Assembly: GCF_003991135.1 (NCBI RefSeq)
Contig: NZ_CP016379.1
Location: 2,604,001 to 2,668,000 of the forward strand
Length of the DNA: 64,000 nucleotides
Direction of reading: 5' to 3'
Source: Anoxybacter fermentans
Lineage (GTDB): Bacteria; Bacillota; Halanaerobiia; DY22613
Shown: one piece after another, positions 23,655 through 29,791 of the stretch
How the letters are laid out: every line of letters begins with the position of its first letter
How positions within the stretch are numbered: position 1 is the first letter of the stretch
Notes under the pieces: generated by a model
The model's database searches: none
What the model was told of the DNA's origin: nothing
Seen by the model: the letters and a program-made list of their open reading frames with translations, nothing else
Translations under genes and position numbers: made by a program

Positions 23655-23718
23655 GAAAAATTTATTGATATCAGGAAGAAAAATTGTCCACAGCTGTATA
23701 ATCGCATTAAAAAAACTT
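23655..23718. repeat. Short repeat with DnaA-box-like core, copy A
   Basis: AAGAAAAATTTATTGAT then TTGTCCACAGCTGTATAA and CATTAAAAAAAC. It is similar in order and spacing to 42174-42241, where the core is TTATCCACA, the DnaA-box consensus. Role unknown. A 74-codon plus-strand frame through here looks accidental. Confidence 0.4.
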
Positions 23719-23740
23719 TGGAGCCATCACTCCAAAGTTT
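23711..23740 (-). terminator. Terminator of the HesB-like gene
   Basis: An 11-bp perfect stem (AAACTTTGGAG / CTCCAAAGTTT) with a 6-base loop, followed on the minus strand by TTTTAATGCG after the stem's own T residues. It starts 28 bases after the TAA of the HesB-like gene. Confidence 0.75.
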
Positions 23741-23767
23741 CTAACTTTACTAAAAAAGATTAAACAC

Positions 23768-24055
23768 TTAATACCTAATACCGGATACTTTCAATCTCTT
23801 AAAAATCCAGAATCCAGGTGCATCAATCACCACTTTAGGATCCGTCCGTAAAGTCTTTAAAATATTAACCCGATAATTATCCACTTCGTACTCTTTAAAT
23901 CCATCAGAAGCTGGCTTTCCTACTGTCACGGTAGGTTGATAAATAATACCATTTCAACCGCCGGATATAGTGATCAAGCTAATCGTTATATCTCTACTAC
24001 CTTTTTTCTTTAGATAATCTTTCGCTGCTTGAGTAATGATTATATTCGGAGTCAA
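23768..24055 (-). CDS. HesB-like protein with in-frame TGA, candidate selenoprotein
   Basis: 95 residues if the TGA at 23956-23954 is read as selenocysteine 34. The frame begins at a TTG (24055) nine bases after GGGAGG and reads MTPNIIITQAAKDYLKKKGS ... ITISGG-U-NGII ... GFWIFKRLKVSGIRY. Both sides of the TGA stay in one frame and match the small HesB-related (seleno)protein family, whose selenocysteine replaces the conserved cysteine of the HesB/IscA domain, related to iron-sulfur handling. A bacterial SECIS-like hairpin begins 18 bases after the TGA. The gene has its own promoter and terminator. The alternative is a Cys-to-stop pseudogene. Confidence 0.72.
23919..23956 (-). promoter_or_regulatory. 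SECIS-like element downstream of the in-frame TGA
   Basis: From the TGA (23956-23954) there are 18 bases to a hairpin CCTAC-CGTGACA-GTAGG (23935-23919): five perfect pairs and a 7-base loop containing GU. Bacterial SECIS hairpins sit inside the coding frame at about this distance. Confidence 0.55.
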
Positions 24056-24086
24056 CTCTTTTAACCTCCCTTATATAATATCCCAA

Positions 24087-24112: not shown

Positions 24113-24141
24113 AGTATATCCCATACCGGCTTTATTGTCAA
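24113..24141 (-). promoter_or_regulatory. Sigma-A promoter for the HesB-like gene
   Basis: On the minus strand TTGACA (24141-24136), a 17-base spacer and TATACT (24118-24113), about 58 bases upstream of the TTG start. Confidence 0.8.
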
Positions 24142-28082: not shown

Positions 28083-28396
28083 AACAAAACCACTTTTAAA
28101 GGAGGCCTTAAATATGGTCAATAAGAATGTTGCGGGTTGGAATATACCCATTAAACAAAAATTATTGTTTTCTTTTATACTGGTTGTTATCATTTGTCTT
28201 GCATTATCCACCTTGCAAAGTGCTACTCTTATAACCCGGACAATGAAAAACACTGTCTCTGAGGCCCAGGAAAAAAGTTTTAAAACTATAAAAAATCTCT
28301 ATTTGAATAAATTAAATTATTTAGAAAATTTATCAAAAAATATTGCTGCACAGCCTGATATCCAACAGGCTACCAAGAAAAAAAGTTTAATTTTAT

Positions 28397-29791
28397 GGCT
28401 CTCCGTCAAATGTTGTGAAAGATAAGTTGGCTCCGTTGAATTGATTGGTAAATTGATTTTGAAATAAACATTTAAATTTAATAACTTAACATTGCATTAA
28501 ATACTCTTCTCCTTAGATTCATAACATTTGGAACACCATATCCAATCCTTTTGATCAATTTAATCTTGTTATTGATACCCTCAGCAAAGCCATTGGTTAT
28601 CTTAGTCTTAAAATAATTTAGTATTTTTTCTTCCCATCTTTGTATTATCTTTTTTACCTGGTAAAAAGGCATCAGCTTGCTTTTTATTACTTCTTTATAC
28701 CACCTTTTTAGAGCTCTGGTGGCTTCTTTCACATCATCTAGCTGCAATAGGTCTCTGAATTCCTCTTTTAATTCCCAGGCCTTTTCTAGAGCTGGACTGA
28801 GTTCAAATAATTTGATGAGCTTTTCATGTTCTTCATCTGTCAATTCTTCAGCTCGTTTTTGGAGTAATAAACGACTTTGAAAAAACTTTCTTCTCTGATG
28901 ATTATTTACTGTTTGTTGAACTTGTTTTCTAACTTCATCAAGGGCTCTGTTCATTAAAGTTACAAGATGAAATTTATCTATAACAATTTTTGCATGAGTA
29001 AATGCTGCATTTGCTACTGCTTTGAACGGCCGCCACATATCCATAGAGATCGATTGAATCTGTCGTCTTTGTTCATCTTCCCAACAATTAAAGTAGTCAA
29101 TTAAATCATCCTTTTTGCGAGTAGGTAAAATGTCAATTAACTCCCGATTAATTGGATCTGTAATGCTAACTCCATATTTATGGCGTTTTAAAACTGCAAA
29201 TTCATCGATACTGATGGCTTTTAATTGACTAAGTTTTGAAACTTGTTGTTTAATGAGAGGGTCAACTACTTTTTTAACTGCATTATTAACAGCTGTATAA
29301 CTTAACCCGTTTTCTCTAGCAACTTTAGAATAATCCTTGCTGACAGTTTCTTTAGCAAGATATTTATCAAAGCGTTTGGTTTTACGGGCATATTTATCAA
29401 TACTTTCATATTTTTCAGGGATACCCCTCTTATGACAATAAGGACAACGATATCTTTTCTTTAGAAGTCTAATGATTACTAGTTTACCTCTTATGGGGAT
29501 GTCTCTAATATTTTGCCATTTTGTATCATGGATTTTATTAGTGATATTACCACACTGAGGACACACAATGTGATTTTTCTTTGCTTCAGCGATAAAAATA
29601 TATCTGTCCTCCGTTGAAATAATTTCAGTTGCAATAATGTCTGGCAAATCAAGAAATTTTATGATATTATTATATTGCATTTGCTGGACTCCTTTCTTTG
29701 GTTTTTAGTTCGCAACTAATTAATTCAACGGAGCCAGCAAATGCCTTTTTATTTTTTATAATTTTTTCTTCACAACATTAATTATAGACCC
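28397..29791 (-). mobile_element. ISL3-family insertion sequence, copy 2 (1,395 bp)
   Basis: Same length and termini as the element at 7574-8968, inserted in the opposite orientation. It is flanked by the 8-bp direct repeat AATTTTAT (28389-28396 and 29792-29799). Near identity of the copies implies recent transposition. Confidence 0.95.
28478..29680 (-). CDS. ISL3-family DDE transposase, second copy
   Basis: 400 residues, full length, with only three visible amino-acid differences from the copy at 7685. The zinc-binding N-terminus and DDE region are intact. It lies inside a chemoreceptor gene on the opposite strand. Confidence 0.95.
   Translation of the reverse strand: MQYNNIIKFLDLPDIIATEIISTEDRYIFIAEAKKNHIVCPQCGNITNKIHDTKWQNIRDIPIRGKLVIIRLLKKRYRCPYCHKRGIPEKYESIDKYARKTKRFDKYLAKETVSKDYSKVARENGLSYTAVNNAVKKVVDPLIKQQVSKLSQLKAISIDEFAVLKRHKYGVSITDPINRELIDILPTRKKDDLIDYFNCWEDEQRRQIQSISMDMWRPFKAVANAAFTHAKIVIDKFHLVTLMNRALDEVRKQVQQTVNNHQRRKFFQSRLLLQKRAEELTDEEHEKLIKLFELSPALEKAWELKEEFRDLLQLDDVKEATRALKRWYKEVIKSKLMPFYQVKKIIQRWEEKILNYFKTKITNGFAEGINNKIKLIKRIGYGVPNVMNLRRRVFNAMLSY

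Follow-up and report, generated by a model that had tools for sequence, protein, structure and literature searches.

Does the single in-frame TGA in a short gene of Anoxybacter fermentans encode selenocysteine (Sec), and if so, to which family does the product belong? The window (the whole stretch of 64,000 nucleotides analyzed) had been described in a sequence-only reading as containing a continuous frame with one TGA, strand unstated; we located it on the minus strand, 24055 to 23768, where 95 residues and a stop are encoded and the TGA at codon 34 is the sole internal stop. The translation is MTPNIIITQAAKDYLKKKGSRDITISLITISGG-U-NGIIYQPTVTVGKPASDGFKEYEVDNYRVNILKTLRTDPKVVIDAPGFWIFKRLKVSGIRY, ending at TAA (23770-23768), with a TTG start (24055-24053). 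The TGA (23956-23954) lies in the context ISGG-U-NG, the residues following U are NGII, and the protein contains no cysteine (Cys). As anticipated for standard gene callers, the program-made ORF list includes no such ORF. The features of the locus are as follows.

23768 to 24055, minus strand: candidate selenoprotein gene with a TTG start, 95 codons, and a stop codon, TGA codon 34 as Sec; NF041239 match of 50.8 bits.
23954 to 23956, minus strand: in-frame TGA (predicted Sec34), aligned with the first cysteine of A-type carriers.
23919 to 23935, minus strand: putative bSECIS hairpin CCUAC-CGUGACA-GUAGG, 18 bases 3' of the TGA, inside the coding region, conserved in TGA forms.
24113 to 24141, minus strand: sigma-70-type promoter-like site TTGACA-17-TATACT, 11 of 12 consensus positions; function predicted.
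24065 to 24070, minus strand: ribosome-binding site GGGAGG, 9 bases 5' of the TTG, read directly.
23703 to 23746, minus strand: intrinsic-terminator-like hairpin followed by a T run, -17.7 kcal/mol, z -5.65 by folding.

The promoter, ribosome site, and separate terminator that had been claimed for this gene are thus all present as described, although promoter-like matches are not rare as such in the region (2 found, 3.2 expected). The terminator was revealed by folding and was not called by a terminator scanner, probably because its stem extends into the T tract.

The Sec machinery of the host genome (3.56 Mb, one contig) was located by family searches, using the Rfam cut-off for tRNA-Sec and curated cut-offs for SelA, SelB, and SelD. 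All four genes were found above these cut-offs: selC (76.2 bits), SelB (436.6 bits), SelA (634.5 bits), and SelD (404.4 bits). The host selD (L018, G000:C1:1616749-1617675) has an in-frame TGA of its own, indicating that SelD itself is very likely a selenoprotein. The SelA and SelB frames have no internal TGA.

The hairpin had been described as a 5-bp stem with a 7-nt loop starting 18 bases after the TGA, which is exact: the arms CCUAC (23935-23931) and GUAGG (23923-23919) enclose the loop CGUGACA. A published bSECIS model (PMC13188914) specifies a stem of 4–16 bp, a loop of 3–9 nt with G within its first two positions, a loop 16–37 nt after the UGA, and an MFE of at most -7.5. The window hairpin, with 5 bp, 7 nt, G at loop position 2 with U next to it, a distance of 23 nt, and an MFE of -9.5 kcal/mol for the 57 nt starting at the UGA, falls within this model. 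Among the 2553 TGA triplets of the window, both strands counted, the same geometry with a loop G was found at 8, and at 1 when only Watson-Crick pairs were counted. Because 188 of the 2553 satisfy a loose hairpin model and local folding 3' of the codon-34 TGA is energetically ordinary (z -0.13), a single hairpin is weak evidence alone; at the level of sequence, it is the conservation of the putative element, not its mere presence, that is strong evidence.

Such conservation was observed in several ways. Across 22 distinct TGA-form sequences, the stem is paired in 110 of 110 cells, and two-sided compensatory changes occur at three of the five pairs, which are all of the variable ones (U-A to C-G, G-C to A-U, and C-G to U-A). 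The covariation score is 0.293 compared with 0.167 in shuffles (reached by 0 of 500), and slid versions of the hairpin score at most 0.13. Synonymous sites under the stem are frozen, with Val encoded by GTG in 34 of 34 sequences, Pro by CCT in 31 and CCC in 3, and the intervening codon ending in C in all 34. Other TGA forms make up a second group, with a stem of mostly 6–7 bp and a loop of GGU or GGC.

To place the gene among its relatives, we considered the host together with related genomes, most of the same class: 19 of 61 carry the family, most with exactly one TGA. The family was also found in 89 of 399 sampled genomes of the phylum. A contig scan with the single protein as query returned no relatives, whereas whole-genome profile searches did find them. 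In the alignment every TGA falls in one column, nearly always as GG-U, and relatives lacking the TGA have Cys-Cys there. Comparison with Sec and Cys homologs, which the sequence-only reading had proposed as a check, revealed that TGA and hairpin are kept together in close relatives, and a stem at the corresponding place was absent from all 16 Cys-Cys relatives retrieved for that comparison. SelA was matched in 13 of 15 TGA-form genomes; this co-occurrence is in the expected direction but weak, since selA is widespread in the class, being present in 42 of the 61 genomes. The two TGA-form relatives without SelA above the cut-off are G019, which is 57% complete, and G042, which is 95% complete and in about 300 contigs.

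The host genome contains a second copy that is 66% identical and has the same TGA, and a syntenic ortholog, 45% identical and likewise with this TGA, occurs in the one further genome from its taxonomic family. The gene order around the ortholog is similar to that in the window, with a few extra genes inserted; from the translations, we take the shared order to be fructose-bisphosphate aldolase, a metallo-beta-lactamase-fold gene, the selenoprotein, a PHP-domain gene, hisZ, and hisG. In comparison with the paralog, dN and dS were 0.16 and 1.10 before the TGA and 0.25 and 0.76 after it; the corresponding values for the ortholog were 0.45 and 1.35 before and 0.40 and 1.86 after. The dN/dS ratio is thus below 1 on both sides of the TGA in both comparisons. 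The second copy (L085:6120-6383) adjoins a small gene on the same strand (L085:5272-5664), whose product, judging from its translation, looks to be a C-GCAxxG-C-C family protein. Two nearly identical transposase-like ORFs of 400 amino acids are also present in this genome (window 28478-29680 and L085:10177-11379), the former adjoining an apparent truncated sensor or chemotaxis gene (28114-28425).

A gene with one in-frame stop, which standard ORF calling splits, might be taken for a Cys gene decaying after a single nonsense mutation. We regard this as extremely improbable, given that the same TGA occurs in the paralog, in about 40 relatives, and in the syntenic ortholog, the last of which refutes decay; moreover, purifying selection persists past the TGA, the hairpin covaries, and the genome has the full Sec machinery. 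The earlier impression that the gene is unlike a decaying one is therefore borne out by the conserved TGA and by a dN/dS below 1 after it. We give an equally slight chance to readthrough with another residue, such as Trp, or to use of UGA as a sense codon throughout the organism. The TGA stands where stop-free relatives have Cys, the hairpin accompanies the TGA form, tRNA-Sec and SelB are present, and the host SelA and SelB frames are free of TGA, all of which argue against this reading. Selenocysteine at UGA34 is strongly supported by the machinery, the match to family NF041239, the kept TGA, and the covarying hairpin; we infer from these sequence data that the codon is read as Sec in the cell, and the gene almost certainly encodes an NF041239 selenoprotein. 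The sequence-only reading had named two outcomes that would count against it, a genome lacking the machinery and close relatives with Cys and no conserved hairpin, and on both points the results favored it instead.

The gene had been called HesB-like, a description that holds for the fold and the position of the first cysteine but not for the family. NF041239, the CC/Se motif family (seleno)protein (Moor_selen_rel), whose first prediction came from Moorella thermoacetica, matched with 50.8 bits (curated cut-off 40) over profile positions 3–90 of 91, spanning the TGA, with one Sec in the same column. The family pattern is Cys-Cys in Cys forms, with Sec taking the second position in Sec forms; the window gene has GGU, and six Cys relatives have CC, as do 16 of another 20 relatives free of internal stops. 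A true HesB-like selenoprotein of TIGR01911, with the function of those proteins, would share the IscA-like fold and Sec at the first cysteine position, and a PF01521 match of E 0.0062 points the same way, though at 17.2 bits it is under the cut-off of 26.3. On the other hand, neither TIGR01911 nor IscA_HesB_Se (NF038090) matched the protein even at E up to 10, NF041239 passed its cut-off, and the motif here is GGU-NG, not UxGP; we therefore consider membership in TIGR01911 very unlikely. The gene is an ordinary new member of NF041239, a family already listed among predicted selenoprotein families in a 2026 review (PMC13188914, Table 1). The motif given in that review is CxxU (CGGU members), whereas the window gene and the relatives closest to it read SGGU and are entirely free of cysteine.

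An AlphaFold2 model of the protein is confident (pLDDT 91.9, pTM 0.79), and its top eight matches among solved structures are SufA, IscA, AQ_1857, and HI1723 (probability 0.97–1.0). The best of these, SufA/IscA, reach E 4.8e-4, with modest TM-scores of 0.42–0.62. In an alignment that is weak by itself (E 0.23), the family profile places the Sec column on the cysteine in the HI1723 motif GGGCSG. The model thus predicts an IscA/HesB-type fold with Sec34 at the first conserved cysteine of SufA/IscA, in agreement with the position originally claimed for the TGA. A-type carriers need three cysteines as ligands, including a pair close to the C terminus. The window protein resembles IscA/SufA/ErpA (PF01521, TIGR00049) in predicted fold and in the cysteine aligned with Sec34; in contrast to them, it lies under every family cut-off (12.3 versus 58.8 bits for TIGR00049) and has none of the cysteine ligands, the C-terminal pair being missing. 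With no cysteine and no C-terminal ligands, the protein would have no strong chalcogen ligand or redox group other than Sec34. Although this chemistry is speculative, the single selenolate is most likely the working group, either as a redox-active residue or as a soft-metal/Fe-S ligand, and we see little to choose between these two roles.

The model best supported by these results is that SelB and Sec-tRNA, recruited by the intragenic hairpin starting 18 bases past the UGA, would decode codon 34 as Sec. The product would be a 95-residue NF041239 selenoprotein with an IscA/HesB-type fold and Sec as sole chalcogen at the first-cysteine site, whose selenolate may act in redox or as a ligand of a soft metal or Fe-S cluster, perhaps jointly with a partner subunit in a dimer.

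Some family members depart from this arrangement. Two Cys-Cys members from one genus (L035:1501-1815 and L038:1501-1815), in genomes lacking selA, have a strong hairpin 22 nt past the Cys codon, in which an 8-bp stem closes a loop starting with G; its shape is unlike that of the window hairpin. Hairpin presence and TGA are therefore not perfectly matched across the family. The hairpin in these two members may be what remains of a SECIS after a recent switch from Sec to Cys, of the kind described for another family (PMC1794560). Four stop-free members (L096, L101, L108, and L110) lack Cys-Cys at the Sec site (TAGG, NPAQ, TCG), indicating that the chalcogen pair has been lost in some copies. A weak family match (L091:603-845, 24 bits) with SYS-U-NG replacing GGU is possibly a divergent Sec form. 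TAG/TAA codons in G428 were considered as recoding of another stop and dropped, as they fall at match codon 0 or 2, before the conserved part.

Eleven family genes from ten genomes and seven genera of the same phylum contain TGA twice in a row (G-U-U or T-U-U); one genome has a second, more divergent double-TGA copy. Their positions are given below.

L078:763-768, plus strand: double TGA.
L079:709-714, plus strand: double TGA.
L080:696-701, plus strand: double TGA.
L081:738-743, plus strand: double TGA.
L082:672-677, plus strand: double TGA.
L090:698-703, plus strand: double TGA.
L083 and L086-L089, reverse strand: double-TGA genes.

A hairpin of 7 bp with a 4-nt loop, mostly GGU(C), lies 3' of the double TGA; every cell is paired in ten of the eleven genes, and covariation is above all shuffles. 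SelA was found in all ten genomes, and both Sec-Sec proteins scanned, with TGA read as Sec, passed the NF041239 cut-off. A 2020 paper on an algal PDI-like protein describes its consecutive Sec-Sec as the first (PMC7539508). Bacterial Sec-Sec is absent from the listing of the review (PMC13188914), and a search of the open-access literature, with RefSeq records outside its scope, found no report of it; thus, the predicted adjacent Sec-Sec codons may be new for bacteria. We lean toward the view that one IscA-fold family uses three site arrangements, Cys-Cys, Gly-Sec (a lone selenol in a protein devoid of cysteine, as encoded by the window gene), and Sec-Sec served by one hairpin, the last being the first bacterial pair. 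If true, a single SECIS suffices for consecutive UGA codons, and a vicinal diselenol is in use.

Standard callers drop or truncate such genes, with the result that too few selenoproteins are counted in this lineage. The pattern of Gly-Sec, Cys-Cys, and Sec-Sec around the gene is more interesting than the gene itself. Natural versions of all three on one small fold make the contribution of Sec directly testable, and the Sec-Sec version offers a test of bacterial decoding of two neighboring UGA codons.
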